Virus record (IMG/VR): IMGVR_UViG_3300024346_000104
Location: 1-49,944 of that record
Length of the DNA stretch: 49,944 bases
Source of the DNA: a virus
Reading direction: 5' to 3' (one strand)
The position numbers and the translations under genes were made by a program. Of the stretch, positions 21,101 to 45,940 are shown piece after piece. Within the stretch, counting starts at the first letter, position 1, and each line of letters starts with the position of its first letter. Below the pieces are notes generated by a model. It saw only the letters and a list, made by a program, of their open reading frames with translations, did not search any database and was not told where the DNA came from.

Positions 21101-23853
21101 TAGATGCTTTAAGTTATGAATATTTTTTAAAATATACAGACAGTTATAATCTTTGGGATTATGTAAGAATTATCAGTTATTATGATAATGCTTTATTTAA
21201 AATGATTAAAGATTATGTACCTGTTAGAAGTTCAGTAACAACAGGTGTTATAATCAAACAACATATTTTAGAAAGAAATAAATATCCTGTTCCACAACCT
21301 GACATTACTTCCTCTTTAGCAATGGTTGGTAGTAATACTACATCTTCATTTATTCTATTCCAAGGAAACGATGATGTTTCTGGAGGACTTTGTTACTCTA
21401 TAACATCCTCAGGAGTTTATAATTTATATGTAACAGGTAGTATTTTAAATGTTGATGGAGATAATCCAACTTTATTTGATATTTATATAACTTCATCAAA
21501 TGGTATTAATACTTTATTTCAGCAAAATATAATTACTGGGTCTAATGTTGCTTTTAGTGGTTCATATAATGCCACAATCCCCTCAGGAAGTTTATTGTGT
21601 TTTGTTCCGGATTCAGTAGGTGATTTCTTTACTAATAATGTAACAGCATCTTTATTACTTGTTAATACTTTAACAACTCCTTATCAAACTGAGGATATGT
21701 TAATTACTGGTTCACCAATCCAAATATATGAAATTACAGGTAGTACAGGAGGTACAATGCCTAATTTATTTGGATTAACTTCATCTCAATATACAGGAAA
21801 TGGCGTAGTTAATATTACTCAAAGTTGGACTGGTTCAACCCCATCTTTATTAGGTCCCGTAACATTTACTAATAATTCCCAAATTGAATTTTATAATGGG
21901 GCTTTAAGTGGATCTACAATTATAGTTGAAACTGGTAGTTTAAGTGATTGTAATGTAGAAATAGTTGAAATTTATACAACAGCTTCAATAAGCGGATCAT
22001 CTTTTTTAAGTCCTAGTATTACATATTCTCTTAGAAATTCATTACAACGTGATGTTGATATAGATAAAACCTATTATATTTCTTTTACTTCCTATAATGA
22101 TGTTGGTTCATTAGCATCGGCTAGTGTTAAATTATACGATAACTCAGGAAGAACATTTTATGATGGGCAGAATGGCGCCAATCCAGGACAACCAGCCCCA
22201 GGACAATCAATTAGTGTATATCAATATCAAATTAACAACCCAGTTTATCCATTATATTTTGCTAGTGCTACAAGTGTTAATAATGCTAATGTCACTAATA
22301 TAACGTTATATGAATCATATATTGAACCAGATTGTCTTGTAATACAAAATGATGTTCCTTTAAGTAGACCTAATCCTAATTTTTTTGATGTTGATTTTAA
22401 TCAAAGTTCAATAGTAGCCCAAAATGCAGCTGTAATTATTAGTGCATCTAGAGGTTTAGGAAGTGCTACCCCATCTACAGTTCCTGAATCAAATTATACC
22501 ACAGCAAGAAGTGCTAATCCAAGATATAATGGTAGTAGAAATACATCACCTAATTTTAATGTAGGATCAGGAAATACAAAACCCTCAGTAGAAATTGATC
22601 AAACATATTTTGCTTATTTTGATGGGGTTGGTGGAACTAATTATGAAATAATAAATAAAGCTGGCTTTCACATTAAATATTTAATTGGTGATGATGGTAC
22701 TGTATTAACTCCAAATTTAACAGGATCTTATTATTATAATTTAATTAGAACTTTTAATGAAACCCAAAATGCAAATGTAACATTTCAAACATCCTCAGGT
22801 AATGTATCTCCATTACAAGGAATTAAACCTGTTATAAAATCAGGAGCTTTAGGTCAAGCTGTAATATTTTCTCAAACCGGAAGTAACACAGGATTTTTAG
22901 CAACAATGTCTTTTAGTTCAACTATATCAAATTATAATTATTCAAATACTACAGCGATTCAAACTGGAGCTGTAAGTGCAAATACTCTATTTACTTTAAA
23001 TTTAGTAGCTGCAGTCTCAGGATCAACAGCAACAACTTCTTCATTATCAGGAGATTTTATCAAAATTCAAACATCCGATCCTAGTTCTCAAATTGTTCCA
23101 AAATTAAATATTCAATTTGATTACACAGAATCATTAAATCAAAATGCTGCTGTAATTTTATATGTTGACTCCTCAACAGATGGAATTAATTTTACTTCTT
23201 ATTATGCCCAACTTTATCAAATTTCAAGTCCAAGTTCTAATAATATCACATTAGTAGCTCCTCCAATAACCCCTATTCAAGATACTTATTATAAAGCAAG
23301 AATTTACTATAGTATTAATGGTCCAAGTACTCCTACTTTTACAATTACCGCAGCAACTTTTTTCATAGCTCAAAACCCTCCTTTTTCATCATTAATAACA
23401 TCAAGTTATTGGGTAACAGGTTCAAGTTCTAAAAATATATTAACTGGTTCACAATTTACTGTAGATATGTATGGTATATCTACCCAAACCACAGTATCAG
23501 GTTCGGGGTACGATTCACCATACCAAACTTTTGATTTACAAATTGGAGACCAAATGAGATTTTCAGCCGATGAAAACCAGGTTTATCAAATTATAGGAAT
23601 CAATGCTCCTTCACAAAACGTAGATAATACTTTATATTTAGCTTTAAATAAACCTATTATTAATGGAACAAATGTAAACTCATTCTTAATAAGAAGATAT
23701 GTTCCTAATCCAAATTTTGTGTTAATTGATGCTCTTAAAACTGATGCTGTAGGAGGAGGATCAGGATTTTTAATCCCAGAATATGCTTCTCAAACACTTT
23801 TAGATAAGTTTGATTCAATAATTGCTAATTTAACCGAAAAAGGACTAATTTAA
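18157..23853 (+). CDS. Giant baseplate/tail-fibre protein with LamG-like domain, 1,898 residues
   Basis: This is the largest gene here. An early globular part is followed by SYKKIYHNLPYLLKKKGTVA (about 546-565), leading into GLRTLINIFGIPDTIL, a stretch I associate with baseplate proteins of phages of this kind. A LamG/concanavalin-like domain follows at about 627-798 (NTLQFRFKAP, GDWWSVMVNR, GSYQEVRYYN), which often binds carbohydrate. The remaining 1,100 residues are Ser/Thr/Asn-rich beta repeats with many TGS/SGS turns. It could combine the roles of a wedge protein such as gp7 and a receptor-contacting fibre. The exact equivalence is not established. Confidence 0.65.
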   Translation: MVNIININPNTLTLQTISPNDVAVIPNTTITSSFNPVNDRIEYFVYDYNNTLLSSNYDLRLYKPVSIDTEGNIINMSISPETDIVTAGYDTGIVKTIYNFVSPQLGTENQNLFISEISPSRTEVRLSSNTNPLFTPDPTVATFISSSNYQLYNTFRQNVETNNYFDEFYLDFGNNIYVIGINSLLEYDSQNNTISLLIKLYEPLPIDIGLKTELYIVTKKAESVAYQIEFVQENIFQDSTIKLNGPNYNIPLKDETGPLTQFKNYEDIVTTTLSGSYFQLINQISSSSPQLSVDYTDYEDFIFFSSAYQRLYNFKEKVINISSSQAQLNSVYSITGSNSSSFAVSSSKLLIEKEIQTIITSFDGYENFLYYTSGAYAWPKSNTTAPYALYPPTSTSASNWYASQSATASTYDLNNQNNLDYVVPAYLRDNSDNTNYMLFVNLIGQFFDEIWLYTKAITTKLDANSNLYEGVSKDLVATVLESLGTKIYDSTYTLENIYSSLIGLSASGSIYPSTGSALITNYVTASVPNTEDIPTINDFVKLSYKKIYHNLPYLLKKKGTVAGLRTLINIFGIPDTILQINEFGGKNKTENNDWDYWQDKFNYKFTLTGSNSKVIVPWQVNTAWNTPTPNTLQFRFKAPNLNSAVTYPSQSLWTLDNTGNTSIVLEYTGSGYTSGSYSGSIPDTYNEYATLKFIPNYSTDPTVSASIYLPFFNGDWWSVMVNRSGSNFTLFTADNIYNGTDGFIIGYTGSATASATTSSWVNSTSSFFPLSGSTLTIGSKTYNKFSGSYQEVRYYNSIIPSGTFYDYTMNPYSIEGVGTDGAYDQLIFRGALGNDLYTASKSIHPKVTGSYITQSFTSNSNFTIVSGSFPVNREFILQDQIPAGIKTAVSKKIKNISTILPYSGSNEVNLPTNQVLSPFIIIDQDSYNSSSYVEDINYVEVAFSPQNEINEDINAQIGYINIGDYIGDPRLVSSSAETYPALDALSYEYFLKYTDSYNLWDYVRIISYYDNALFKMIKDYVPVRSSVTTGVIIKQHILERNKYPVPQPDITSSLAMVGSNTTSSFILFQGNDDVSGGLCYSITSSGVYNLYVTGSILNVDGDNPTLFDIYITSSNGINTLFQQNIITGSNVAFSGSYNATIPSGSLLCFVPDSVGDFFTNNVTASLLLVNTLTTPYQTEDMLITGSPIQIYEITGSTGGTMPNLFGLTSSQYTGNGVVNITQSWTGSTPSLLGPVTFTNNSQIEFYNGALSGSTIIVETGSLSDCNVEIVEIYTTASISGSSFLSPSITYSLRNSLQRDVDIDKTYYISFTSYNDVGSLASASVKLYDNSGRTFYDGQNGANPGQPAPGQSISVYQYQINNPVYPLYFASATSVNNANVTNITLYESYIEPDCLVIQNDVPLSRPNPNFFDVDFNQSSIVAQNAAVIISASRGLGSATPSTVPESNYTTARSANPRYNGSRNTSPNFNVGSGNTKPSVEIDQTYFAYFDGVGGTNYEIINKAGFHIKYLIGDDGTVLTPNLTGSYYYNLIRTFNETQNANVTFQTSSGNVSPLQGIKPVIKSGALGQAVIFSQTGSNTGFLATMSFSSTISNYNYSNTTAIQTGAVSANTLFTLNLVAAVSGSTATTSSLSGDFIKIQTSDPSSQIVPKLNIQFDYTESLNQNAAVILYVDSSTDGINFTSYYAQLYQISSPSSNNITLVAPPITPIQDTYYKARIYYSINGPSTPTFTITAATFFIAQNPPFSSLITSSYWVTGSSSKNILTGSQFTVDMYGISTQTTVSGSGYDSPYQTFDLQIGDQMRFSADENQVYQIIGINAPSQNVDNTLYLALNKPIINGTNVNSFLIRRYVPNPNFVLIDALKTDAVGGGSGFLIPEYASQTLLDKFDSIIANLTEKGLI

Positions 23854-29937: not shown

Positions 29938-30699
29938 ATGATTGGACTGATGTCTCTTTTAAAAGAAGTACAAGGGAAACCAAAAGCTATATTCATGGCA
30001 GGTCCTGCTGGCTCTGGAAAATCGTTCATCTTACAAAAATTGATTCCATCTAACTTTGATATCATTAATGTTGATGACACCTACGAGGAATTACTTAAAT
30101 CCTCAGGTATTGGAATGAAGTTAGCTCAAATGTCCCCTGATGAATTAAAAAAAGCAGGTGAATTAATGGGTCAAGCTAGAAAAACAACAGATAGTAAATA
30201 TCAAGAGGCAACCCAAAATTTAAAAAATCTTGCTATTGATAGTGTAGGAGGTTCTTCTAAAACATTACTTAAGAAAAAAGCAGAATTAGAAAATTTAGGT
30301 TATAACACGATGATGATAATGACTTATGTATCGCCTATAACGTCACTAGAGCGTAATAAACAGCGAGACAGATCATTGTTGCCGAGTATTGTGATTCGAT
30401 CTTGGCGCGACGTAAATAAAAATATAGACACATATAAACAAGCATTTAGTGATAATTTTACAATAGTAGATTTAAATCATGAAGATGCTAATAAGAGTTT
30501 TGATGAGAACTATATTTATAAAACATACATCGAACCCTTAGGACAAGTAGGAAAAGAAAAAACTCCTGAAGAAAAACTAAAGTCCGAACAAGAAGCAAAA
30601 CAAATTTATTCAGATATAAAACAATTAATGTCAACTCAACCCGAGTTTGATACTTTAGAACAAGCAAAATCAAAAACCACTAACTTTATAAACAAATGA
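29938..30699 (+). CDS. Zeta-toxin-like P-loop kinase with targeting-type N-terminus
   Basis: 253 residues. The Walker A loop GPAGSGKS is at about 22-29, IINVDDTYEELL follows as the acceptor-site strand, and TYVSPITSLERNKQRDRSL (about 130-148) with SWRDVNKNIDTY matches the lid region of zeta-toxin-like kinases. These phosphorylate small molecules such as UDP-sugars or nucleotides; the substrate here is unknown. The protein starts MIGLMSLLKEVQGK, a short helix like those on the following head-type proteins. It may therefore be packaged and delivered to the host. The C-terminal 50 residues are a charged helix. Confidence 0.65.
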   Translation: MIGLMSLLKEVQGKPKAIFMAGPAGSGKSFILQKLIPSNFDIINVDDTYEELLKSSGIGMKLAQMSPDELKKAGELMGQARKTTDSKYQEATQNLKNLAIDSVGGSSKTLLKKKAELENLGYNTMMIMTYVSPITSLERNKQRDRSLLPSIVIRSWRDVNKNIDTYKQAFSDNFTIVDLNHEDANKSFDENYIYKTYIEPLGQVGKEKTPEEKLKSEQEAKQIYSDIKQLMSTQPEFDTLEQAKSKTTNFINK

Positions 30700-31088
30700 A
30701 ATTATTAGACTTACTAAACGAAGTAGAAAAAAACGAAAAACCAGTTAAAGAAATGACTCCTGTCATGGAAGTTGAAACATCAACTATTGATGAAATTGGT
30801 AAATTCTTTATAGCTAAAAAACCAACATCTAAAAACGATAAAATTGAAGATTTAGTAATGGAAACAAGCGTATTAGATTTTGCTTCACAAGGATTAGAAT
30901 CTAAAAAACTGTTAGGTATCTTTAAACAAAAATCAGATGCTCGTAGAAGTGCTACTGAAGCTATTAAAGAATATGAAATGCAGCTTAAAGAAATGGAAGA
31001 TGCTATGGAAGCTTTCCGTGGTGCTAAAAAAGACATTGAAGATAAGAAAGCCGCAGCTAAAGAAAAAATCCAAAAGTTAAAACAATAA
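30696..31088 (+). CDS. Putative internal head protein, coiled coil, 130 residues
   Basis: The N-terminus MKLLDLLNEVEKNEKPVKEM closely resembles the capsid-targeting peptide of T4 internal proteins (MKTYQEFIAEA), and LNEV would serve as a prohead-protease site. The rest is charged, with a long C-terminal coiled coil (EYEMQLKEMEDAMEAFRGAK). It overlaps the kinase gene by four bases (ATGA) and shares one base with the next gene. The function is unknown; a scaffold or packaged protein is most likely. Confidence 0.55.
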   Translation: MKLLDLLNEVEKNEKPVKEMTPVMEVETSTIDEIGKFFIAKKPTSKNDKIEDLVMETSVLDFASQGLESKKLLGIFKQKSDARRSATEAIKEYEMQLKEMEDAMEAFRGAKKDIEDKKAAAKEKIQKLKQ

Positions 31089-33760
31089 TGAACCCACTTA
31101 CCAAAATCTTATTAGAAGATATTTTGGAAGCGGATAATAAAAAAATAACCGCTATTTATGGTGGTGGATTCAAACCACCAACCAAAGGCCATTTTAATGT
31201 TATTGAAAAAGCAGCTGAACAAAATCCTGAAATTGATGATATTATCATTTATGTGGGGGGCGGTGAGCGTGATGGTATTACTCAAGGTGAATCTATTCAA
31301 ATTTGGGAGTTATATAAAAAATATCTTCCAATTAAAACTATAGTAGAACCCGTAAAAGCACCTGTTGGTGATATTTTACGTTATGCTAAAGAACATCCTG
31401 AGGAAACAGTACTTTGGATTATAGGTGCTCGTGAAAATAATCCTGAGGATTTTACTGATATTGCTTCTAGAACTAGAACAATAGAAAAATATCCAAATTT
31501 ACAATTACGTGTTATTCAAACAGCAGGTGGTGTTAGTGGAACAGCCGCTCGTAAAGCCGTTAGAGATAATAACCAAGAACAATTCTATCACCTAATCCCA
31601 GATATTCCTGAAAAGGAACAAGTATGGGATATTGTATCTCCTGTTGTAACCGAAGGAGTATTTAAAGATTTAAAAAGCACATTAAAATCAATTTGGTCTA
31701 AAGGTGGAAAACTTACTCAAGATATAATAGATGGTGCTAAAAGAGAAGGAAAAGAAACATCAAAATTAATTCAACTTCTTAATAAAATGCTTCATGGTGA
31801 TTCTATTACAGATGATGAGAAAATATTCATGAAAGCTCAAGGTAAGGATTTATTAAAAGTATTACCACTTGTAGCTATACAAGGTATTCCATTACCAATT
31901 CCAATAACTCCTTTATTATTAGTATTAGGGAAAAAATTTGGATTTAATATACTTCCTGATTCTCATGAGGTTATGCCTTTATCAAGTTTAGCTGAAGTAA
32001 ATAACTCCTATCAAAAAGCATTATCTAAAACCGAAGAAGAAGCATTAGAACTAACATATAAAAATTGGGATACATTTGGTGGTAAAGAATGTAACAATGG
32101 TTTCTGTGATATTTTTGCTAAAAATTTAAGTAAATATTTACCCGGCTCTAAAATAATGAGCACAGAAGATCCTAGAAATAATACATTAGGACATGTTTGG
32201 GTTGAATATGAAGGTAAATATTTTGATGCTGAAACTCCTAATGGAGTAAATTCATGGAAACAATTACCATGGATGATAGAATTTTATTCAAAAAACAAAT
32301 CACACCCTACAGACATAGAAACTCTAAATGAAGTAGGTGAGGCAAATCTTAAACCATATAAATGGAAAGAAGTAGATAGAGAAAGTTATTTTGTTTATAC
32401 TCGTTTTGTAACAGATAGCGAAACTCAATACGATGTAGATTTAAAATCAACTAATTATGTTGATGATGATTTAAATAATTTACGAGCTTTAGGAATTGAA
32501 TTTTCAGCCAAACTAAAAGGTGATGAAGGTTCATCTGCTAAAATAGTAGTTAATAAAGGTGAAATGTATAAGGTAATGTCTACAATTGCTGATATAATTA
32601 AAACATATATTAAAAAATCTAAATCCCAAGCTATTTTATATTCACCTTCTAAAAAATCAGATGAGGAAGATTTTGGTACTCAAAGAGATAATTTATATAG
32701 AGCATTTATTTCTAAAGCATTTCCTGGTGTTAAATTTAAACAAGATGGGGAAATAGTAGCAGCTATATTACCTAATTCAGTTAATGAATTAGTAACAGAT
32801 ACAGATGTAATTTGTGATAATTGTGGTTGGGAATGGCCTATAGCAGATGGTGGAGATGATTTATATATCTGCCATAAATGTGGACACGATAATAATCCCG
32901 ATCTAGAAGAAGGAACTTGTGGCTATGATACAGATGTTAAAACAGGTGAAAAATTAAATACACCTGGTGGATTAGAAGAAGGTCGTCCTAAAAAGAAAGA
33001 TCCTAAAAAAGGAACCGGTAAAAAACCTGAAGGATCGGGTCGTAGATTATACACAGATGAAGACCCTAAAGATACAGTTAGTATTAAATTTAAAACTAAA
33101 GAAGATATAGTTGATACTTTAAATAAAAAACAATTTAAAGCTAAATCACACTCTCGTCAATCTCAAGTAATTAATTTAATCCATCAACGAGTAAGATCGG
33201 CCTATGGTAAATCAAAAGATCCTGAAGTAAGATCAAGACTAAAACGTGCTTTAGATTATATTGAAAAACGTAAAGAAATGTCTAAAAAGAAGACAGAACG
33301 TTTACGTAAAATGAAAGAAGTATCAGACCCATTTGGTTTAAACGAATTAGCAAGACAATTTCTAAAAGAAGCTTTAATAGAAACTTGGAATCCCCAAGAA
33401 TCTTTCGTATCTTTATCCAAGTTCATGATAGACAACGGAATGAATATTCAACCTTTACCCAAGGTGAAAATAATTTCAAATGATGAAGAAAATGCATCTA
33501 ATCTTTTAGGTAAAACTGCTTATTATAATCCAAACGATAAATCTATTACTTTATATACTAAAGATAGACATCCAAAAGATATATTACGTTCATTTTCCCA
33601 TGAAATGGTACATCATGAACAAAATTTAGAAGATAGATTAAATAATATTAACACAACTAATACCAACGAAGACGGAGCATTACCTGAAATTGAAAAAGAA
33701 GCATATGAAAAGGGTAATATGATGTTAAGAAATTGGGAAGATAATATTAAAAATGTATAA
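31088..33760 (+). CDS. Multidomain polyprotein-like head cargo: nucleotidyltransferase, Cys peptidase-like, zinc ribbon, HExxH protease
   Basis: 890 residues with at least five modules. (1) The targeting-type start MNPLTKILLEDILEAD. (2) A cytidylyltransferase-like domain at 19-180 with GGFKPPTKGH (T-x-GH motif) and VSGTAARKAV. (3) A hydrophobic LETM1-like stretch at about 256-285. (4) A Cys-His-Asp set at about 334-385 (NGFCDIFAKN, GHVWVEY, YFDAETPNG) as in papain or transglutaminase folds. (5) A zinc ribbon at about 575-602 (CDNCGW, CHKCGH). (6) A basic helical domain at about 640-740. (7) A metalloprotease-like HEMVHHE at about 838-844. VTEG, LNEV, VNEL, LEEG (twice) and LNEL fall between modules, like prohead-protease sites. 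Processing into separate packaged enzymes is inferred. Confidence 0.7.
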   Translation: MNPLTKILLEDILEADNKKITAIYGGGFKPPTKGHFNVIEKAAEQNPEIDDIIIYVGGGERDGITQGESIQIWELYKKYLPIKTIVEPVKAPVGDILRYAKEHPEETVLWIIGARENNPEDFTDIASRTRTIEKYPNLQLRVIQTAGGVSGTAARKAVRDNNQEQFYHLIPDIPEKEQVWDIVSPVVTEGVFKDLKSTLKSIWSKGGKLTQDIIDGAKREGKETSKLIQLLNKMLHGDSITDDEKIFMKAQGKDLLKVLPLVAIQGIPLPIPITPLLLVLGKKFGFNILPDSHEVMPLSSLAEVNNSYQKALSKTEEEALELTYKNWDTFGGKECNNGFCDIFAKNLSKYLPGSKIMSTEDPRNNTLGHVWVEYEGKYFDAETPNGVNSWKQLPWMIEFYSKNKSHPTDIETLNEVGEANLKPYKWKEVDRESYFVYTRFVTDSETQYDVDLKSTNYVDDDLNNLRALGIEFSAKLKGDEGSSAKIVVNKGEMYKVMSTIADIIKTYIKKSKSQAILYSPSKKSDEEDFGTQRDNLYRAFISKAFPGVKFKQDGEIVAAILPNSVNELVTDTDVICDNCGWEWPIADGGDDLYICHKCGHDNNPDLEEGTCGYDTDVKTGEKLNTPGGLEEGRPKKKDPKKGTGKKPEGSGRRLYTDEDPKDTVSIKFKTKEDIVDTLNKKQFKAKSHSRQSQVINLIHQRVRSAYGKSKDPEVRSRLKRALDYIEKRKEMSKKKTERLRKMKEVSDPFGLNELARQFLKEALIETWNPQESFVSLSKFMIDNGMNIQPLPKVKIISNDEENASNLLGKTAYYNPNDKSITLYTKDRHPKDILRSFSHEMVHHEQNLEDRLNNINTTNTNEDGALPEIEKEAYEKGNMMLRNWEDNIKNV

Positions 33761-34301
33761 ATTAACAGATTTGTATAAACAACTTAAAGAGGAATCAAAG
33801 GAATCCCCTCAATCACAATATAAAATTTATTGTGATATGGATGGTGTTTTAGTAGATTTTGACCTCGGTTATAAAAATTTAACTGGAAAAGAAACACATC
33901 ATGTTGATGTGCAAGGTAAAAGTGAATTTTGGGGTACTTTTAAACAAAGTCTTCAAGATAAAAAAATGAGTGAAAAAGATTATTGGGCAAACTTACAATG
34001 GATGCCTGATGGTAAAGAATTATGGAATCACATTAAACAATACAGCCCAACACTACTATCAGCTCCTTCAAGAGACCCTCAGTCTCGTTGGGGTAAACGT
34101 ATTTGGGTTAAAAATAATATTCCTGGAACTCCATTAATTTTAGCAGCAGCAGAAGCAAAAAAGAATTATGCTAAAAAAGACGCAATACTTATAGACGATA
34201 GAATCTCAAATATCAATGACTGGAACACAGCTGGTGGTATTGGAATTCTTCATACCTCAACATCAACAACAATAGATAAATTAAGCAAATATGGCATTTA
34301 G
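33753..34301 (+). CDS. HAD-family phosphatase, 5'-nucleotidase-like, with targeting-type N-terminus
   Basis: 182 residues. HAD motif I is YCDMDGVLVDFD (about 27-38) with the nucleophile Asp, motif II is LLSAPSRDP, and the Lys and motif III are in AEAKKNYAKKDAILIDDR. The DMDGVLVDFD form is that of 5'(3')-deoxyribonucleotidases, so a nucleotide phosphatase is likely. The leader MYKLTDLYKQLKEESKES precedes the fold and looks like the targeting helix of its neighbours. It overlaps the polyprotein gene by eight bases. Confidence 0.78.
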   Translation: MYKLTDLYKQLKEESKESPQSQYKIYCDMDGVLVDFDLGYKNLTGKETHHVDVQGKSEFWGTFKQSLQDKKMSEKDYWANLQWMPDGKELWNHIKQYSPTLLSAPSRDPQSRWGKRIWVKNNIPGTPLILAAAEAKKNYAKKDAILIDDRISNINDWNTAGGIGILHTSTSTTIDKLSKYGI

Positions 34302-34626
34302 AAGAATAGTAATTAGCGGAGAACGAGTAGAAGACACCAAAAATGATTTGGAAGGATTCTTTTCAAACAAAATATTTAAAACCAATTATCCAGGGGTAAA
34401 ATATAAAATCATTGTATCTCCTATTAAAAAGGATACACTTGTAATAGACGTAAATGGTGAAGGTGCTGACACAGTATCTAAGAAAGTTAAAGATATTGCT
34501 TTAAAATACAAAATGAAAGCAATAATTAAACTTGAAAAACCAATGTCTGCTGTAAGTGAAAATAAAATTAAAAAATCTGAATTAAAAGAAATTATCAAAA
34601 CAGAAATTAAAAACATGTTAAAATAA
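34291..34626 (+). CDS. Head-region protein with C-terminal KKSEL helix, 111 residues
   Basis: No family is recognised. Residues 1-85 form an alternating alpha-beta pattern (FRRIVISGERVEDTK, YKIIVSPIKKDTLVIDVNG, MKAIIKLEKP), possibly a ferredoxin-like fold. The end, KIKKSELKEIIKTEIKNMLK, is the same KKSE(L/F) helix that begins the proteins at 41560 and 48155, here moved to the C-terminus. It overlaps the phosphatase gene by 11 bases. Confidence 0.6.
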   Translation: MAFRRIVISGERVEDTKNDLEGFFSNKIFKTNYPGVKYKIIVSPIKKDTLVIDVNGEGADTVSKKVKDIALKYKMKAIIKLEKPMSAVSENKIKKSELKEIIKTEIKNMLK

Positions 34627-34627
34627 A

Positions 34628-35200
34628 ATGGAAAATAATTCAGTTTTAAAGAAAGAGTTTAAACATAGTGATGTTAATCGTCTCCGTAACCTTGTCCAAG
34701 GCAAGTATGGAGAAAAAACTACTATGGGAACTGGTTATACAAAAGCAAAAGAATTTCATGGTGAAGGAGACGTATGGGAAGAAGACGGACGCACATGGAC
34801 TATTAAAAATGGTGTTAAACAAAACATCACAAAATTAGATAAGGCAAAAGAAGGTATTGTTTTACCTTTGTTTTGCCCTTCTTGTTCTAAAGCAACAAAA
34901 CCACATTTAGATAAAAAATGGTTCGTAATGTATGGACATTGCTTTAATTGTCAAATTGATTTTGAACATAAGTTACGTAAAGACGGTAAATTAGAGGAGT
35001 TTGAAAAAGATACTATCAACCAACATTTAGATGGTACTATTAAGGATTTTGAAATTTGGTTTGATGAATTAATCAACCAAAAACAAGAATTTATTACTGA
35101 AGCAGGTGATATTGAAAAATGGGATGGTAATGGAAAATCCCAACTGTTAAAGTATAAAGAAGAAGCAATGGATTATTTACAAAAACAAAAGAAAGAATGA
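34628..35200 (+). CDS. Zinc-ribbon protein, 190 residues
   Basis: A zinc ribbon is clear at about 82-112: FCPSCSKATKP, about 20 residues with KKWFVMYGH, then CFNCQIDFE. The N-terminal part contains GDVWEEDGRTWTIKNGVKQN, two short strands seen in other T4-like phage proteins of this type, and the C-terminus is a long charged helix. Zinc ribbons of this kind bind nucleic acid or protein. The function is unknown. No targeting helix is evident. Confidence 0.65.
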   Translation: MENNSVLKKEFKHSDVNRLRNLVQGKYGEKTTMGTGYTKAKEFHGEGDVWEEDGRTWTIKNGVKQNITKLDKAKEGIVLPLFCPSCSKATKPHLDKKWFVMYGHCFNCQIDFEHKLRKDGKLEEFEKDTINQHLDGTIKDFEIWFDELINQKQEFITEAGDIEKWDGNGKSQLLKYKEEAMDYLQKQKKE

Positions 35201-35814
35201 CAACGTTAGTAATGTTTTCAACCATTATCGTAGCTCTTATTACTGCTGTAATAGGACCTTTATTAATGACCTGGTTTAAAAATAAATTAGATTCAACCCC
35301 CCCAGTATCATCCGTTAAGGAAGCAATTGACTTAAATGAGTTAGTTGATCATCAATTAGATATAATGATGGATGAATTAGATTGTGATAGGATTTGGATT
35401 GGACAATTTCATAATGGAGGACATTTTTATCCAACAGGTAAATCAATTCAAAAATTCTCTATTTTTTATGAGAAATTATCCCCTAACACATTAGCTATTC
35501 AACATATATACCAACAAATTCCTGTTTCTTTATTTCCTAAATCATTATCTAAATTATATAAAGATGGAGAATTAGGTATAACAAGTTATGAAAATGATGA
35601 AACTTATGATTTACATTTATTTTCTAAAGAATATAACACAAAATCATTTTATATGTTAGCACTAGATGATTTAGATGATCATTTTATTGGTGTTATGGGA
35701 ATTGCGTTTAATGAACAAGAACATAAATTATCCAAAGAAGAATGGATATTTATAAGACAGAAAGTAGGAGCGATTGGTTCCCTTTTAACAAATTATTTAA
35801 AAACTAAAAAATGA
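35197..35814 (+). CDS. Membrane-anchored GAF-like protein
   Basis: 205 residues. The first 28 (MFSTIIVALITAVIGPLLMT within) form a membrane helix. The rest reads as a GAF-like sensor fold: a helix ELVDHQLDIMMDELDCD, a strand RIWIGQFHNGG, then a long central loop, FYMLALDDLDDHFIGVMGIAF and a final helix IRQKVGAIGSLLTN. GAF domains bind small ligands or dimerise. A phage membrane protein with one could sense or modify host signalling, but this is speculative. It overlaps genes on both sides by four bases. Confidence 0.6.
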   Translation: MTTLVMFSTIIVALITAVIGPLLMTWFKNKLDSTPPVSSVKEAIDLNELVDHQLDIMMDELDCDRIWIGQFHNGGHFYPTGKSIQKFSIFYEKLSPNTLAIQHIYQQIPVSLFPKSLSKLYKDGELGITSYENDETYDLHLFSKEYNTKSFYMLALDDLDDHFIGVMGIAFNEQEHKLSKEEWIFIRQKVGAIGSLLTNYLKTKK

Positions 35815-36050
35815 AATTTGGATTAGGCCCTTTAGAAAATAGTAGAACATTCTACTCACCAAAAGGTAATCAAACAATCATTAGAGATACTGTAAATCCT
35901 CAATTTAACATACCTCAACCAACCCTAGTTAACGAAACTGAACCGGAAATTGAGGTAATAATAAGTGAAGAACCTACTTTAGAAATTATAGCAGAAATTC
36001 CTGCTCCTAAAAAAACAAAAAAAACAAATGAAAGACCTTCAGAAAATTAA
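35811..36050 (+). CDS. Small Pro/Glu-rich protein, 79 residues
   Basis: Low-complexity, probably disordered product: GLGPLENSRTFYSPKGNQ, then strings of Glu, Ile and Pro (PEIEVIISEEPTLEIIAEI) and a basic end APKKTKKTNERPSEN. It overlaps the following gene by 23 bases, which supports translation coupling. No family is recognised. It may be an anchor or linker peptide in the head. Confidence 0.5.
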   Translation: MKFGLGPLENSRTFYSPKGNQTIIRDTVNPQFNIPQPTLVNETEPEIEVIISEEPTLEIIAEIPAPKKTKKTNERPSEN

Positions 36051-37467
36051 AGAATTCTTTTCTAAACCAGTAAATGAAGCAATTGAAACTCCAATGGATG
36101 CAATTGCCTTTCTTAATGCTAATAAAAATGAAATTATTAAATTAGCAGACCAATATAAAGGAGATGTATCATCTATGCAAAAAGCAATTGATAATTTCCT
36201 TGCTCCTCATATTGATGGCACTCCTGATTTTATAATTGATAAAATTAAAGCAGCAATTGGTGGAGCTATTTCTAAAAGAAATATTGCTGCTAATCCTGAT
36301 TTATCTGCAACTTATGATAAATTAAAAAATGTTAGAGGAGTTGTAAAAGAAAAAAAAGAAACAGCTGTTGACATGGCTAAAAAGCAATTAGATGCTTTAG
36401 GCATTAAATACGAAATGTCAGGTAACAAATTTAAACCATTTAAAGTTATTTATAAACCATACAATGAAGATTTAGATGCTTTGTATGACCAAGAATATGA
36501 ATTAACTCGTATATATCAACAAGATAAAGGTAAAGAAAATTGGGAAAAATTATCTCAAATAAGAGAAAAAAATAAACGATTAGAAGAATTTGAGGATATT
36601 ATTGACTTATTTAATTTAGGTAGTGCTGTAAAATCATCAATGAATGAAGCTAATAGTTTTGATAAAGCTTTAGATTTAAGAGCTAAAAAAGTAGAAATTG
36701 AAGACGAAATTAACCAATTACGTATGGAGATGGAAGATGAAGGCGATGAATCTAAAGCTAATTACTATGGTAGACAATTAAATAAATTGGAAGACAGATT
36801 AGCTAAAGTTAAAAAACAGTTAGATGATTATGATATGAATGAAGCAAAATTCATGTCAGGAATACTTTCAGGCAAAGACTTTATTAATGCTAAATTAAAA
36901 AACTATCCTAAAGCAGTAGCTAAAGTTAACCAATTAATTGATATGATTGGTGAAGATAAATTTACAATAGAAATGGCTGAGTGGATTTTTGATTTCTTTA
37001 ATAACGCGCACTTCGAAAGTCCAATAAATGAAGCTAAAGAGGAAGATAAAGTAGATACCATTACAATGGATATTCCTTTATTCCTTCGTATGTTAGAATA
37101 TTCAAGAGAAGATGCTTCTCAAGACATGGATTTACATGATGTTACTGAAAAAGCAATCTCATTAGGTAAGGAAAGAGGTATATTACAAATGGATGATTAT
37201 AATGAAATTATAGGTTCTGCTGAAGAAATAAAAGAAAATGTAGCTCCAAATCATGATGGTAAATCATCACCTTATGGTTCAGGATACAAACCACTAGAAG
37301 AAAGAATTGCTAAAGCATTAGACCAAATTAACGAGGAACTTTGTCCTGCTGGTAAAGCATATAGAAAACGCAGAATGGCAGCAGGTGAAAAATCATCAGC
37401 TTATTTATCAGGACGTGCTGTTAAAGTATGTAAAGGACAAATGTCAGGTAAAAAAAAGAAAAAATAA
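36028..37467 (+). CDS. Putative packaged head protein with repeated NEA sites, 479 residues
   Basis: The N-terminus MKDLQKIKEFFSKPVNEAIE is a targeting-type helix ending in a VNEA site. Further sites SMNEA, DMNEA and INEAKEE divide the protein into helical blocks at about 208, 272 and 333. The C-terminal part contains APNHDGKSSPYGSGYKPLEE and then CPAGKAYRKRRMAAGEKSSA with SGRAVKVCKGQM, a Cys-containing basic motif met again in the next gene. The family function is unknown. Processing by the prohead protease into several peptides is inferred from the site pattern. Confidence 0.6.
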   Translation: MKDLQKIKEFFSKPVNEAIETPMDAIAFLNANKNEIIKLADQYKGDVSSMQKAIDNFLAPHIDGTPDFIIDKIKAAIGGAISKRNIAANPDLSATYDKLKNVRGVVKEKKETAVDMAKKQLDALGIKYEMSGNKFKPFKVIYKPYNEDLDALYDQEYELTRIYQQDKGKENWEKLSQIREKNKRLEEFEDIIDLFNLGSAVKSSMNEANSFDKALDLRAKKVEIEDEINQLRMEMEDEGDESKANYYGRQLNKLEDRLAKVKKQLDDYDMNEAKFMSGILSGKDFINAKLKNYPKAVAKVNQLIDMIGEDKFTIEMAEWIFDFFNNAHFESPINEAKEEDKVDTITMDIPLFLRMLEYSREDASQDMDLHDVTEKAISLGKERGILQMDDYNEIIGSAEEIKENVAPNHDGKSSPYGSGYKPLEERIAKALDQINEELCPAGKAYRKRRMAAGEKSSAYLSGRAVKVCKGQMSGKKKKK

Positions 37468-37757
37468 TGGATAATAATCGTTTACAAGAATTAGTATCTG
37501 AATCATTACGCGATTGGTTTAAAAAAGAAGACTGGGTGCGTATTGATACTCAAGGTAATATTACTGGTCCTTGTGGAACGATGAAAAAAGGTGGAGCTAC
37601 AACTAGATGTTTACCTCGTAAAAAAGCTCAATCATTATCTAAAGCTGAACGTGCTAAAACTTCACGTAAAAAAGCATCTGCTTCTCGTAAAGGAAAACAA
37701 TTTGTTTCTAATACTGATAAAGCAAAATACAAAAAAGGTACATATAATAAAAAATAA
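37467..37757 (+). CDS. Basic DUF5872-like protein, 96 residues
   Basis: It starts MDNNRLQELVSESLRDWFKK, a targeting-type helix, followed by EDWVRIDTQGNITGPCGTMK and RCLPRKKAQSL. The Cys-Gly and Cys-Leu-Pro elements and the Lys/Arg-rich tail resemble DUF5872 proteins of phages. The tail (SRKKASASRKGKQF) is strongly cationic and could bind DNA. It shares one base with the gene upstream, whose C-terminus carries a related Cys/Lys motif. Confidence 0.6.
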   Translation: MDNNRLQELVSESLRDWFKKEDWVRIDTQGNITGPCGTMKKGGATTRCLPRKKAQSLSKAERAKTSRKKASASRKGKQFVSNTDKAKYKKGTYNKK

Positions 37758-37758
37758 C

Positions 37759-37768
37759 ATATTTATAA
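37759..37768 (+). promoter_or_regulatory. ATATTTATAA motif (candidate late promoter)
   Basis: Exact motif 15 bases before the ATG at 37784, preceded by C and without a -33 TTTG. Confidence 0.5.
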
Positions 37769-37783
37769 CATATACTCAATAAA

Positions 37784-39679
37784 ATGGCAAAATTCGATTT
37801 AAAAAAAGCTATATTAGAAAATAAAGCAACTTTCTATTCATCATTAACTGAAGGTCAATTTTCATGGTTTACTCAAGATACAAATCAACAAATTGGATCA
37901 GAAGATGAAAATACTCTTCCTTTTGTTTATATGCATGATAATAAGGGTAATAAATGGTTAGAAAAAAGATATGAAGGATATGGTGAATTTGGTGGTAAAG
38001 ATTACTACGAATTACTAGACCAGATGAATGGAGGTTCAGGTGATAGAAGTGAAGGAATTAGATTAGCTTTTGATGATGCTGCTGTATCTGCTGGTAAAAT
38101 ATTATTTCCGGCTCTAACAGTTAGTGCAACTTTACCTAGATCTTATGATTTTACTGAAGAATCTCCAAATGATCCTAATCAATCATGGTATACTCCTGAA
38201 GAAGATGATGATGATGATGATTATATCATGGGAGATAGAGAAGATGATTTAGAAGATGATGAAGAAGAATTAAATGAAGGAAAAATGTATTTCCACGTAT
38301 TAGAAGATGGTGGTTACGGTGATATAGGACATCAAGGTGTTTATAACACTAAAGAAGAGGCTCAAAATAAAGCTGATAAATTAGCTGATATGTTCCCTGC
38401 TTCCTCTTTTTATGTTGAGGCCTCAGATAGTAAGGATGAACCATATAATGTAACTATGGAAGAAAATAAAAAATTAGATAAATCTAAATTAGAAGAAGGT
38501 TTAACTCCTCTTCAACAATATGTTTATGATTTTGAATCTGATATAAGTGGTGAAGATTTTGCTGAGGAAGAAAAAGAAAATATCATGAACCTTAAAACTG
38601 TAGGTGATGTTAAAAAATATTACACAGACTATAGAGGTTGGATGGATGATAGTTCTCTTAGAGAAATGCTTATGGATTTATTAATGGATTTATCATCTGA
38701 ATTTCCTAAACTAAAAGAAGGTTCTAATAAGTCTGAAGTAAAAGAAGCTATGATGGATGTAGCTAAAGATATGACCACTCAAGAAACAGCAGGTATTGCT
38801 GAAAGATTTGCTAAATATATGTCTAATAAAGAAGGATACAATTTTACTGTAACAGCCGGTTCAGTTGAAGGTCCTTCATTTGATTTAGATGTTGATGGAC
38901 AAGAATATGAAGGTGGTAGCTACGTTATTTTAACAAACGGAGACATTGTAAATATGGCACTCCCAGGAAACCCAGTATACGGTAATACTCTAATGATGGA
39001 TGAAGCCGAAAAACCAAAAACAAAAATGAAAAAATCAGAATTTAAAGATAAAATCAAAGAGATGGTTTTAGCAGAAATGGAATCTAACAATATGGAAGAT
39101 GCCCCAGAATCAGAAGTTGATTTCTTAGCTGAAGTTGATCGTATTTTAGCTGAAGCAGATGAAGAAGAAGTAGCAGTAGACGATACTGAAGTATCAGTTG
39201 ATACTCCTGAAGATGATATTGAAACAACAGATGTTACAACTACAGCTACAGTTGATCCTAACGTAAAAGCAGTACAAGATGCTTTAACACAAGCTCAAGC
39301 AGCTGCTCAAACATTAGGAGATGCTAAATTAACAGATCAAATTGGTAATACAATTACATTCTTTACTCGCTCACACGTAGTTGATAAAGGTGCTGTAGCT
39401 GAAGCAGATGAAACAACATTAAGTAATCTTCAATATGTGTTAGATTGGTGGGAAGAATTACCATTTGAAAAGAAAAAAGAAATATTTCATCAATCCCATG
39501 AAGCTGAAGATGCTGCTGGAAAATATAAAATGGAAGAAGGCAAAAAAGAATATTATAATGATGCAGAATCAGATGATGCTGCTCATATTAATGCATTAGA
39601 AAAAGACATGAAAGATGATAAAGACTCATCCATGAAAATCAAAGAAGTTGTTTTCCCAATGTGGCAACGAATTAAATAA
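37784..39679 (+). CDS. Large acidic head protein with internal KKSEF module, 631 residues
   Basis: It starts MAKFDLKKAILENKATFYSS. A very acidic stretch (EEDDDDDDYIMGDREDDLED) lies at about 142-165, then LNEG precedes a small domain beginning KMYFHVLEDGGYGDIGHQGV. Another site, LEEGLTP, is near 238. KMKKSEFKDKIKEMVLAEME (about 413-432) is the KKSE helix in mid-protein, after which comes an Ala/Thr-rich acidic region with ILAEADEE and AVAEADET. The many L/I/A-x-E-(A/G) sites suggest scaffold-like or packaged peptides released by protease. No enzyme motif is seen. Confidence 0.6.
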   Translation: MAKFDLKKAILENKATFYSSLTEGQFSWFTQDTNQQIGSEDENTLPFVYMHDNKGNKWLEKRYEGYGEFGGKDYYELLDQMNGGSGDRSEGIRLAFDDAAVSAGKILFPALTVSATLPRSYDFTEESPNDPNQSWYTPEEDDDDDDYIMGDREDDLEDDEEELNEGKMYFHVLEDGGYGDIGHQGVYNTKEEAQNKADKLADMFPASSFYVEASDSKDEPYNVTMEENKKLDKSKLEEGLTPLQQYVYDFESDISGEDFAEEEKENIMNLKTVGDVKKYYTDYRGWMDDSSLREMLMDLLMDLSSEFPKLKEGSNKSEVKEAMMDVAKDMTTQETAGIAERFAKYMSNKEGYNFTVTAGSVEGPSFDLDVDGQEYEGGSYVILTNGDIVNMALPGNPVYGNTLMMDEAEKPKTKMKKSEFKDKIKEMVLAEMESNNMEDAPESEVDFLAEVDRILAEADEEEVAVDDTEVSVDTPEDDIETTDVTTTATVDPNVKAVQDALTQAQAAAQTLGDAKLTDQIGNTITFFTRSHVVDKGAVAEADETTLSNLQYVLDWWEELPFEKKKEIFHQSHEAEDAAGKYKMEEGKKEYYNDAESDDAAHINALEKDMKDDKDSSMKIKEVVFPMWQRIK

Positions 39680-39685
39680 ATAATC

Positions 39686-39693
39686 TATAAATA
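39686..39693 (+). promoter_or_regulatory. TATAAATA motif, identical to the T4 late promoter consensus
   Basis: TATAAATA nine bases before the ATG of the histone-like gene at 39703. It is the reverse complement of the TATTTATA core of the other motifs. Confidence 0.45.
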
Positions 39694-39702
39694 ATAAAAA
39701 TT

Positions 39703-39873
39703 ATGAACACAACAGAAATTTTAGAAAAAATTGAAGCACTTTACGAATCATTTAAAGCAGAACATGCTGGAAAATCAAAAGCTGCTCATGGTCGCGCTCG
39801 CAAAGCATTAGGTGAAATCAAGAAATTGGTTACCGAATACAGAAAAGCGTCAATTGATGAAGACAAGAAGTAA
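39703..39873 (+). CDS. Histone H1-like (Hc1-type) DNA-binding protein, 56 residues
   Basis: The product MNTTEILEKIEALYESFKAE is followed by HAGKSKAAHGRARKALGEIK and ends KLVTEYRKASIDEDKK. The K-A-A-x-G-R-A-R-K-A-L-x-E-(I/L)-K-K-L core is that of the histone H1-like (Hc1) proteins common in Bacteroidetes and Chlamydiae, which condense DNA. A packaged copy could neutralise or compact the phage genome, or act on host DNA after entry. It overlaps the next gene by 17 bases and lies among head-type genes. Recognition is by pattern only. Confidence 0.68.
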   Translation: MNTTEILEKIEALYESFKAEHAGKSKAAHGRARKALGEIKKLVTEYRKASIDEDKK

Positions 39874-41551
39874 AATAGAAGAAAAGAAGCTTTCAAAAGC
39901 TGAATTAGAAGCAAGAGAGAAAGTAATTAAGGACTTGAAAAAAAATAAGTCCGCTCTTGTTAAACGCTACGGCAAAGATGCTGAAGCAGTCATGTATGGA
40001 CGGGCAACAAACATAGCTAAAAAAATGGCAGAATCAGAAAACAAAAACAGACTCAAAGAACTAGTTAGAAAAGCTTTAATGCAAGAAGGAAAAGAATTTT
40101 CCGAAGAAGAAATTCAAAAAGTAATGGATACTTTTGAGATGACTAGAGAAGAAGCAATTGATCATTTACAACAATCCTATTCAGATTATAAACAATTTGA
40201 TATGGGTGAAGGTAAAAAAGAAGATGTTGACGGAGACGGAGATATCGATTCTAAAGATTACTTAGCTAAACGTGATGCTGCTATTAAAAAAGCAAAAGGC
40301 AATATTGATGAATCAGGATATAGAGAAATGACTGATGCCGAAAGATCAAAGAAGCAATATATGGATCAACAGTTAAAAAGACTATCCGATTTAAAAAAGC
40401 GTCAAGAAGATAAAGAAAGATTACTTAAGCTTCAACAAAAACTTTACCAAGATAGAATGTCCTCCCTTATGAAAGAAGAAGAATTAGAAGAAGCTTATGT
40501 TCCTTCAAACATTAAAGAATTTGCTAAAAGAAAAGGCGCTACCTCTTTAGTTAATAAAGTAGCAGGTTGGGCTGAAAAAGCAGGTAAAGGTATTCGTGGT
40601 GGAACAGCAGTTGGAAAAAATTATAGTACTCTTGTTCTAGATTTAGGATTTCAAGATGGATCTGTTCGTATTAATCTTGATGATGATACAGTTACATTAT
40701 ATGATGAAGAAGTTTTTGATGCTAAGTCATTTAAACAAGTATATTTAGACAATCAAGAAGAATCTAAAGATAGTGAAATGAATGAAGATATTGACTTAGG
40801 TCACGAAGATAACGAACCACATATGATTAAAGGTGATTTATATCGTATTGGAAAATATGCTATGGAATTATATGCTATGATTGAAGAATTAGAAGAAACA
40901 GGACAAGAAATTGATTTCCCTGCTTGGTGGCAAGCTATGATTACTGATTCAAAAGAAAAAATGGTTAAATCAAAACATTATCTTGATTTTGAATTAAAAG
41001 AACCAGCTATTGATGCTGCTGTAGATGCTTTAACAGGTGAAGCACCTCATATGGGTGAACCTGAACCCCCAATGATGGAAGATATGTTTTCAGGAAGAAA
41101 TGATATGAGTTCAAGTGAATATGGTGGTATGGATGATATGCGTCTTGATAATTTAGCAGCTAAGATTACTAAAGCTCTTAGAAATTTTAAATACCAAGAT
41201 GATGAATCTCAAAATAACATCAAACAAGCTAGAAAAGCTATGAACAATAATAATATCAATGCTGCTGAAAAAATTATTAAACCTTATTTATCAGAAAAAA
41301 TAGCTAAAAAATTAAAAGAAGATATTGGACGAAACTACCCAGAAGAACTTGACGGGGAATATGAAGGAAAACCACAAAAAATAAAAGGTGTTGATATATA
41401 TGATACCTTAAAAGATATCCTTGACATTTCCAATTCTGAAAATGACTTCATAAGAAAAATGACTGATTCACTTACAGATGAAACTAGTGTTTTATCTAAA
41501 AGTAGTGAAGAAAAATTAAGAAATTGGTACAAAAAGAACGTTACTAATTAA
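39857..41551 (+). CDS. Multidomain head protein with EF-hand-like loop, 564 residues
   Basis: The start at 39857 is chosen because an earlier in-frame ATG lies deep inside the histone-like gene. Visible parts: LKKNKSALVKRYGKDAEAVM (about 29-48); a KKSE-type helix NRLKELVRKALMQEGKE; an EF-hand-like calcium loop DVDGDGDIDSKDYL (about 124-137); a coiled coil with KRLSDLKKRQEDKERLLKLQ; and a domain DNEPHMIKGDLYRIGKYAME with FPAWWQAMI, which recurs in virion proteins of T4-like phages. LEEAYV, MNED and DESGY sites separate them. It is probably a packaged or scaffold protein. Confidence 0.62.
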   Translation: MKTRSKIEEKKLSKAELEAREKVIKDLKKNKSALVKRYGKDAEAVMYGRATNIAKKMAESENKNRLKELVRKALMQEGKEFSEEEIQKVMDTFEMTREEAIDHLQQSYSDYKQFDMGEGKKEDVDGDGDIDSKDYLAKRDAAIKKAKGNIDESGYREMTDAERSKKQYMDQQLKRLSDLKKRQEDKERLLKLQQKLYQDRMSSLMKEEELEEAYVPSNIKEFAKRKGATSLVNKVAGWAEKAGKGIRGGTAVGKNYSTLVLDLGFQDGSVRINLDDDTVTLYDEEVFDAKSFKQVYLDNQEESKDSEMNEDIDLGHEDNEPHMIKGDLYRIGKYAMELYAMIEELEETGQEIDFPAWWQAMITDSKEKMVKSKHYLDFELKEPAIDAAVDALTGEAPHMGEPEPPMMEDMFSGRNDMSSSEYGGMDDMRLDNLAAKITKALRNFKYQDDESQNNIKQARKAMNNNNINAAEKIIKPYLSEKIAKKLKEDIGRNYPEELDGEYEGKPQKIKGVDIYDTLKDILDISNSENDFIRKMTDSLTDETSVLSKSSEEKLRNWYKKNVTN

Positions 41552-41559
41552 ATAACAAC

Positions 41560-42024
41560 ATGAAAAAAAGCGAATTAAGAGATAAAATTAAATCCCTTGT
41601 ACAACAAACGTACAAAGCTAAATCTATTGATTTAGATAATGGAGAAGAAATTACTCTTGATGCTGATAAATTCCCTGTATTAACAAAATTTCCCAAACTA
41701 AAAGACGTAATTATTGATTTGCTAACAGATCAATACGAAATCTTTATGACTGCTATAGAGTGGGTCGCTCCTCGTCCAACAACTTTTAGAATTGTACTTG
41801 GCAATAACGAAAACTTTTTGTTAATTTATACCGAGAGAAGTTGGATTGCTCAAGTTGAAGGTAAAAAATATTACTTATTAAACTTAAGCGAAGAGGAAAT
41901 GGCAGCAGAATCTATTTCAAGATTATTAGCATACGGAGTCCCATCACCAGCAGAAGGTGAAGCCCCAGCTGAAGAAACAGCTGAAGCACCTGCTGAAGAA
42001 GAAGAAGAAACAACAACAACGTAA
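41560..42024 (+). CDS. Head protein with KKSEL leader and acidic tail, 154 residues
   Basis: The leader MKKSELRDKIKSLVQQTYKA is followed by a compact beta domain (IDLDNGEEITLDADKFPVLT, PTTFRIVLGNNENFLLIYTE, then RSWIAQVEGKKYYLLNLSEE) and an Ala/Glu-rich low-complexity tail (PAEETAEAPAEEEEETTTT). No fold is recognised with certainty. The tail could be a spacer or a protease-sensitive region. Confidence 0.6.
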   Translation: MKKSELRDKIKSLVQQTYKAKSIDLDNGEEITLDADKFPVLTKFPKLKDVIIDLLTDQYEIFMTAIEWVAPRPTTFRIVLGNNENFLLIYTERSWIAQVEGKKYYLLNLSEEEMAAESISRLLAYGVPSPAEGEAPAEETAEAPAEEEEETTTT

Positions 42025-42025
42025 T

Positions 42026-43144: not shown

Positions 43145-43153
43145 TATTTATAA
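43144..43153 (+). promoter_or_regulatory. ATATTTATAA motif (candidate late promoter)
   Basis: Exact motif overlapping the stop of the previous gene; the ATG at 43156 is two bases downstream. Confidence 0.4.
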
Positions 43154-43155
43154 CC

Positions 43156-44043: not shown

Positions 44044-44044
44044 T

Positions 44045-44362
44045 ATGATAAAATTATTAGATATATTAAAAGAAGCAAAACAATCAATTGAGGATTTTGC
44101 TGGCACTAGATTAAAAGGTGCTGAAAAAATTGCTAATACTACCTTAAAAGCAGGTGGACTATCATTATTAACTTATAAACACTATAAAGTTAAATTACCC
44201 TATTATAAAAAAGCAGCAGCTGGTAAATTAGATAAAGATGCTGCTAAAAAGGAATTTGAAGAAACTTTAAAAAGTATTTCCCTAGGTATGACTCAAAGCC
44301 AATTTCAAACAGAAGTTGGACGTTTAGAGGTATTAGGTGAATTACTTATAGAAAATAAATGA
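44045..44362 (+). CDS. Putative internal head protein, 105 residues
   Basis: The ATG at 44045, one base after the previous stop, gives MIKLLDILKEAKQSIEDFAG, very close to the start of the gene at 30696 (MKLLDLLNEVEK) and to T4 internal protein leaders. The rest is basic and helical (HYKVKLPYYKKAAAGKLDKD). A longer reading starting within the preceding gene is rejected. No other domain is seen. Confidence 0.58.
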   Translation: MIKLLDILKEAKQSIEDFAGTRLKGAEKIANTTLKAGGLSLLTYKHYKVKLPYYKKAAAGKLDKDAAKKEFEETLKSISLGMTQSQFQTEVGRLEVLGELLIENK

Positions 44363-45888: not shown

Positions 45889-45940
45889 TATTTTTATAGA
45901 TGGATTCATAGCCCGTCGATCTTATTAAAAAATGACAGCT

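Follow-up and report, generated by a model that had tools for sequence, protein, structure and literature searches.

In a 49,944-nucleotide stretch of virus DNA (IMG/VR record IMGVR_UViG_3300024346_000104; this whole stretch is called the window, and all coordinates without a record name refer to it), the gene at 31088-33760 on the plus strand encodes a protein of 890 amino acids (aa) that we interpret as a cargo polyprotein. With a probability of roughly three in four, this chain would be drawn into the prohead by its N-terminal leader, cut there by the S77 prohead protease at the leader and at the joints between its modules, and its products injected into the host together with the DNA. The source phage is T4-like, a relative of Flavobacterium phage immuto.

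In the mechanism that we propose, the N-terminal amphipathic peptide would act like the capsid-targeting sequence of phage T4 and bring the chain into the prohead core. The S77 (gp21-type) protease would cut after the Glu of an [LIV]-x-E motif, with Lys or Asn preferred at P2, at the leader and at each joint, and the identity of the motif suggests that this cutting is the same step as the trimming of the gp23 capsid precursor. Cutting would leave roughly seven folded products, plus a few small peptides, all of which would remain with the DNA and pass into the host upon infection. The predicted masses of these products are 19.7 kDa (residues 15-189), 12.5 kDa (190-303), 13.0 kDa (304-415), 17.2 kDa (416-567), 4.6 kDa (568-608), 13.3 kDa (632-744) and 14.6 kDa (766-890). 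In this way a single targeting peptide per chain would bring in a whole set of proteins in constant proportion, and further cargo could be gained by the insertion of a site-flanked bead.

Module layout and its shuffling among relatives

By inspection of the sequence, 31088-33760 is a single intact open frame of 890 codons, tightly packed between genes on the same strand. Its product reads, in order, N-terminal peptide, nucleotidyltransferase, LETM1-like helical module, YunG-like module, DUF6934-like module, zinc ribbon, short peptide, basic module and HExxH module (Table 1). A sequence-only reading of the window had named five of these parts, and each is present: the T-x-GH nucleotidyltransferase (TKGH in GGFKPPTKGH, with TIGR00125 above its cut-off), a Cys-His-Asp domain (an invariant C...H...D pattern at residues 304-415), a CxxC...CxxC zinc ribbon (CDNCGW...CHKCGH), a basic domain (lysine/arginine-rich) and a HEMVHHE metalloprotease-like end (HEMVHHEQ plus a conserved downstream Glu). 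It had also placed VTEG, LNEV, VNEL, LEEG and LNEL at the joins; with a slash for the predicted cut, these are VTE/G at E189, LNE/V at E415, VNE/L at E567, LEE/G at E608 and E631, and LNE/L at E753, to which LAE/V (E303) and LIE/T (E765) can be added.

Scanning IMG/VR yielded 505 relatives, 80 loci being kept for comparison, and the order of modules in the homologs was mapped with eight module profile hidden Markov models (HMMs). Among isolated phages in the phage collection, substantial matches came only from the four records of Flavobacterium phage immuto. When the protein is aligned to the open reading frames (ORFs) of the relatives, its modules are present, missing or in another order, and the break points recur near residues 189-191, 304-307, 411-416, 563-567, 604-610, 629-631 and 742-776. 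The eight HMMs distinguish 32 module orders among 61 complete multi-module ORFs. The 5'-nucleotidase that is a separate gene in the window is an in-chain module in several relatives, and the basic module is separate or reordered in other records; two of them (G002 and G004) have one gene for the nucleotidyltransferase/HExxH pair and another, some 8-10 kb away, for the basic/zinc-ribbon pair. The helical module is a gene of its own in the 634-kb phage LR745206, as is the DUF6934-like module in locus L013 (N-terminus ...IINE/LLIKE/), while the zinc ribbon occurs in 71 copies across 70 proteins with differing neighbours on both sides. Even the short peptide GTCGYDTDVKTGEKLNTPGGLEE lies between other modules as well and opens a separate gene (L058). 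Since the modules are permuted, dropped and separately encoded, it is unlikely, as far as sequence can tell, that they form one merged fold, and the polyprotein proposed by the sequence-only reading gains support from their being separable.

An [LIV]xE motif at the joints

That reading had further taken the joins for cut sites, and here too the comparison agrees with it: [LIV]xE marks the joins specifically. Break points were set by BLAST alone, blind to the motif, over 60 non-redundant homologs. Alignments end exactly at the E of [LIV]xE at 25% of the end break points, against 1.5% expected, and start exactly at its P3 residue at 26% of the start break points, against 1.8% expected. At the same break points the variants [LIV]xD/K/N/Q/S/T/G show no enrichment. 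As a control we used a 1898-aa tail-fibre-like protein (18157-23853) from the same phages, which has 83 non-redundant homologs and many break points; in that family there is no clear enrichment of break points at E.

The junctions between HMM-defined modules, clustered to 108 distinct short ones, tell the same story when compared with 200 shuffles: 107 contain [LIV]xE, where the shuffled mean is 58.7 and the maximum 72. Taking one junction per ordered module pair (30 pair types), the motif is found in 99% versus 50% after shuffling, and the stricter [LIV][KN]E in 75% versus 12%. Lys or Asn occupies P2 in 52% of the joint sites but in 11% of module-interior sites (Fisher 1.6e-18). Within all eight modules [LIV]xE is depleted (0-0.77 of expected, versus 0.91-1.16 in other genes), a pattern that is suggestive only, since the module sequences are homologous.

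These figures bear directly on the idea that the chain is an uncut multidomain protein in which [LIV]xE is a favoured linker or the footprint of module recombination, an idea that we consider improbable. It draws on the fact that cleavage is deduced from sequence, and on short shared linkers that could be recombination points: DPFGLNxxAxxL...E/ recurs at other joints, and SDPQxGxAxPYGSG... is also shared. Many of the linkers, however, are unrelated, with only the E tripeptide in common, and each joint tripeptide is encoded by 4-8 different 9-mers, so that the motif is conserved at the protein level. Moreover, the identical motif closes N-terminal leaders, where no joint exists; the tail-fibre-like family is shuffled too, yet displays no motif effect; and within modules the motif is rarer than expected.

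Leaders, prohead protease and capsid precursor

The leader of the polyprotein, MNPLTKILLE/DILE/, resembles the T4 capsid-targeting sequence. The first ~16 residues of almost every complete homolog contain [LIV]xE, the other leader residues being variable. Stand-alone modules, nearly all of them NT5C genes, likewise begin with a leader of ~9-30 aa ending in the motif (35/36 distinct N-termini). The rule extends to genes beside the polyprotein: besides the family of 30696 (Table 1), it is followed by 40/40 distinct N-termini in the 29938 family and by 34/36 in the 33753 family. The neighbouring families of 34291, 34628 and 35197, with a site in 2/15, 0/39 and 0/26 N-termini, do not follow it. 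In immuto, whose leader is MKKSELVKLIKE, the motif lies within the first 28 aa of 24/29 proteins of the head/cargo region, versus 11/46 tail proteins (p 6e-7) and 40/118 early proteins (p 2e-6).

The main rival explanation, which we regard as unlikely, is that the embedded HExxH zincin processes the chain at the joints by itself, either in the head or after injection. Most strings do carry a zincin-like HExxH with a conserved downstream Glu, many homologs have a second module with HEIEHLTQ, and the same role is proposed for the zincins of polyvalent proteins in passages of the paper describing them (PMC5512222). Against this, the motif also opens separate genes without HExxH (the 29938, 30696 and 33753 families), and it is present in Basic-ZnR genes that lack HExxH as well as in the propeptide of gp23. 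Cleavage behind a Glu that has an aliphatic residue at P3 fits, moreover, the prohead protease class (PMC5694885).

The candidate protease and the capsid precursor are encoded by the relatives. Each of the nine records that match gp23 has an S77 match too, and Pfam E-values in relatives are 5e-30 and 9e-35 for S77, 7e-76 and 6e-84 for gp23, 5e-71 for the portal and 6e-16 for the T4-type terminase. The gp23 propeptides contain conserved LLE/, LLE/G, LLE/N and LVxE/ sites, and L[TSV]E is present at most S77 protease N-termini. The link to T4-type prohead proteases made by the sequence-only reading is thereby strengthened: S77 is encoded in relatives, and the gp23 precursor of these phages shares the motif. 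An aliphatic residue at P3 and cleavage behind Glu define a recognised motif class of prohead proteases, and T4 Alt is cleaved at ITE-6 and LTE-619 (PMC5694885). In one relative (G017) the copy of the gene reaches 76% identity to that of the window in the best segment. There the gene order of the window continues and is followed after ~18 kb by a run of genes in a single orientation, namely terminase, portal, S77, a scaffold-like gene and gp23; the scaffold-like gene between S77 and gp23 has many sites.

This arrangement also speaks to a third explanation, namely that a host protease cuts the sites in the cytosol, or that they are cut after injection, with the cargo not packaged in the head. 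The head location is indeed deduced solely from leaders, gene position and motif identity. But the motif is the same as in the gp23 precursor, the genes for terminase, portal, protease and gp23 follow the cluster directly and in the same orientation, and the leaders resemble T4 capsid-targeting sequences, for which reasons we give this explanation very little weight.

A number of points weigh against packaging and cleavage of the chain by the prohead protease. The number of [LIVM]xE motifs in the polyprotein is at chance (19 versus 16.9 in shuffles, p 0.32), and the case therefore rests on the position of the motif instead of its number. One of the 108 junctions has no [LIV]xE, and copies inside modules, such as IWE74 in the nucleotidyltransferase, are presumably left uncut, so that the motif alone would be insufficient. 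The homologs are not statistically independent. Neither S77 nor gp23 has a match within the window, a fragment that ends before the head genes. Targeting, cleavage, packaging, injection and the activities of the modules are things that we infer, and we found no virion proteomics of immuto or its group in the open-access literature.

Identity of the modules and neighbouring genes

The first module scores 30.4 bits with TIGR00125 (adenylyltransferase/cytidyltransferase; cut-off 27.7, E 3.2e-7), and its profile matches the adenylyltransferases 1f9a/1vlh in PDB (E 3e-6 to 1e-5). GGFKPPTKGH and SGTxxR, the latter as SGTAAR in the window copy, are conserved. With the (H/T)xGH and SxTxxR motifs and the superfamily profile match all in place, the module is by these sequence signatures a HIGH-superfamily nucleotidyltransferase; as to specificity, it matches the pantetheine-phosphate family and the nicotin(amid)ate-nucleotide family alike.

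For the other modules the matches are more distant. The helical module matches NF040639 in the copy of locus L005 (E 5e-7), and the window copy gives no match to that model. The YunG-like module has a weak Pfam match under the cut-off (PF24591, E 0.0017), with C, H and D invariant in the homolog alignment, and the DUF6934-like module matches PF22028 at E 5e-4 in the window protein and at 6e-10 in the best homolog. In the HExxH module H838, E839, H842 and E871 are nearly invariant; its M91/DUF6782-like Pfam matches are all under the cut-off, and it was not assigned to any zincin clade of the polyvalent-protein paper (PMC5512222). A direct search of the whole 890-aa protein against PDB gave no significant match. 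Searched separately, the modules that the sequence-only reading had told apart fared unequally: the nucleotidyltransferase alone was confirmed against PDB, the profiles of the HExxH, helical and DUF6934-like modules had no match there, and that of the YunG-like module had only two weak ones, to designed proteins. A PADLOC match to 'Cas12f' in one homolog is probably the zinc ribbon. Because the zinc ribbon, the basic module and the LETM1-like helices are probably not enzymes, the 'separate enzymes' of the sequence-only reading are better worded as separate cargo proteins.

Table 1. Modules of the 890-aa polyprotein and related genes in the window; a slash marks a predicted cut after Glu.
Feature	Position	Strand	Basis
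N-terminal peptide MNPLTKILLE/DILE/, residues 1-14	31088..31129	+	sequence; directly precedes first nucleotidyltransferase strand
HIGH-superfamily nucleotidyltransferase (adenylyltransferase-like), residues 15-189, end VVTE/G	31130..31654	+	TIGR00125, PDB profile matches
Helical module, distant LETM1-like similarity, residues 190-303, end LAE/V	31655..31996	+	NF040639 in L005 copy
Cys-His-Asp (YunG-like) module, residues 304-415, end LNE/V	31997..32332	+	PF24591 below cut-off, invariant C/H/D
DUF6934-like module, residues 416-567, end VNE/L	32333..32788	+	PF22028
Zinc ribbon module CDNCGW...CHKCGH, residues 568-608, end LEE/G	32789..32911	+	sequence
Short peptide GTCGYDTDVKTGEKLNTPGGLEE/, residues 609-631	32912..32980	+	recurrence between different modules
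Basic module GTGKKP...RKMKE/, residues 632-744	32981..33319	+	separate or reordered in other records
Linker VSDPFGLNE/LARQFLKE/ALIE/, residues 745-765, three motif copies	33320..33382	+	sequence
HExxH (zincin-like) module, residues 766-890, and stop codon	33383..33760	+	conserved H838, E839, H842, E871
Cargo-type neighbour, Zeta-toxin-like P-loop kinase, N-terminus MIGLMSLLKE/	29938..30699	+	PF06414 E 1.1e-9
Cargo-type neighbour, N-terminus MKLLDLLNE/VEK	30696..31088	+	[LIV]xE in 35/35 distinct family N-termini
5'-nucleotidase (NT5C-like), N-terminus MYKLTDLYKQLKE/	33753..34301	+	phrog_2643 E 3e-27
Second bead-string gene, same joint rule	36028..37467	+	break points of 64 homologs
Third bead-string gene, same joint rule	37784..39679	+	break points of 17 homologs

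The joint rule holds in two further genes of the window: for 36028-37467, 15% of the break-point ends and 27% of the starts fall exactly at E (about 3% expected), and for 37784-39679 the figures are 13% and 23% (2-3% expected). Partial, shuffled homology is also seen for 39857-41551. From 29938 to 48658 there runs a series of genes with [LIV]xE-ending leaders, among them MIGLMSLLKE, MKLLDLLNE, MYKLTDLYKQLKE, MKDLQKIKE, MDLKKLIKE, MIKLLDILKE and MKKSELKSYIRE, which is apparently a head-cargo cluster situated upstream of the terminase in relatives. One gene in this run, 44359-45018, matches the phrog_3704 'ferredoxin' family (E 1.4e-76), yet it has no obvious Cys-rich cluster, and the family name may be wrong.

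Some observations on the homologs deserve mention. In locus L059 (3071-6832), a homolog of 1253 aa has an Fe/Mn superoxide dismutase bead (E 7e-43) and a plastocyanin-like cupredoxin bead (E 1e-13) among the usual modules, and ART-HYD1-like and pol-beta-like modules were found in homologs as well. A second zincin-like bead, which starts with GRYDxxxRxLA, has HEIEHLTQ inside and is bounded by [LIV]xE, is carried by immuto and by seven of the loci (L025, L026, L029, L041, L050, L056 and L072); it has no Pfam match within the stretches scanned. Gp40 of Pelagibacter phage HTVC033P (L195, 2974-3264) is the basic module as a free protein of 96 aa; this phage has no S77 match, and no [LIV]xE site or leader precedes its basic module. 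A near-identical copy of the polyprotein gene (L007, 3586-4857) breaks off within the helical module and continues in a different ORF, through an assembly error or as a broken gene.

Relation to known phage proteins and significance

The sequence-only reading knew of no such layout from described phages. This must be qualified, as polyvalent proteins, described as multidomain injected phage proteins and proposed to be cut mainly by an embedded metallopeptidase, are known (Iyer 2017; passages of PMC5512222). According to these passages, the polyvalent proteins that phages and conjugative elements encode resemble the present chains in joining unrelated domains in one polypeptide with many architectures, in their zincin-like metallopeptidase and, as in some of our homologs, ADP-ribosyltransferase-like and pol-beta-like modules, and in a predicted entry into the host with the DNA, which our chains may share. 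The difference lies in the joints, which here carry the prohead-protease-type motif common to the capsid precursor, and in the modules, which here are also stand-alone genes with a motif-ending leader of their own; the joint motif is not described in those passages.

The second known counterpart is found in T4, where diverse defence proteins, the T-even internal proteins, share a targeting sequence (PMC3012670). As in IPI-III and Alt, a short N-terminal leader ends in aliphatic-x-Glu and variable cargo follows a conserved leader (PMC3012670), and S77 (gp21) and gp23 belong to the same phages, here in the relatives whose records reach the head region. Alt is cut at both ends (PMC5694885). Unlike T4, which packages single proteins, the chains described here link as many as nine or so beads, and every joint has its site. 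In the giant phages phiKZ and SPN3US, too, head proteins are processed by the prohead protease behind x-x-Glu, often repeatedly within a propeptide; in SPN3US, however, 14 cuts were mapped, of which 13 take off N-terminal propeptides and the remaining one trims the protease itself, and the release of multiple folded modules from one chain is not reported there (PMC10052503).

The closest annotated homolog, immuto35A_182 (QQO92100.1), is annotated as a single enzyme, an NMN adenylyltransferase. It comprises an N-terminal pol-beta-like module, the nucleotidyltransferase, HExxH and a second HEIEH module, and, as in the window, the 5'-nucleotidase gene comes next; unlike the window gene, it has another module set and order, without the zinc ribbon, basic and YunG-like modules. 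In this chain of roughly 100 kDa the leading candidates for joint-type Glu residues are E25, E286 and E496, together with VMAE/GRYD, which lies between its two HExxH modules. No description of cargo chains with prohead-protease sites at their joints was found in the open-access literature. Polyvalent proteins and targeted internal proteins of T4 are thus known, and what is new, in line with the other half of the sequence-only claim, is the prohead-protease sites at the joints of a cargo chain.

Beyond this single gene, it seems probable that T4-like phages of Bacteroidota have a general 'beads on a string' cargo format, with several such genes per genome, one targeting peptide per chain and processing in the capsid-maturing protease step. 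The interchangeable modules would include the nucleotidyltransferase, 5'-nucleotidase, superoxide dismutase, cupredoxin, ART-like proteins, zincins and others. If so, head maturation would be coupled to the way in which a payload of several effectors is packaged and processed, and to its stoichiometry.

The cultured relative, Flavobacterium phage immuto, makes a practical test of these predictions feasible. If the chains are cut as predicted, the question of how polyvalent proteins are processed would become a direct test of which protease cuts at which sites. The head cargo of uncultured phages could then be predicted from leader and joint motif, and the chain would offer a natural format for placing several proteins behind one capsid-targeting peptide. 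Should the chain be cut in this way, it would represent a polyprotein strategy in phages, as in RNA viruses, by which many host-acting proteins are loaded into the head.

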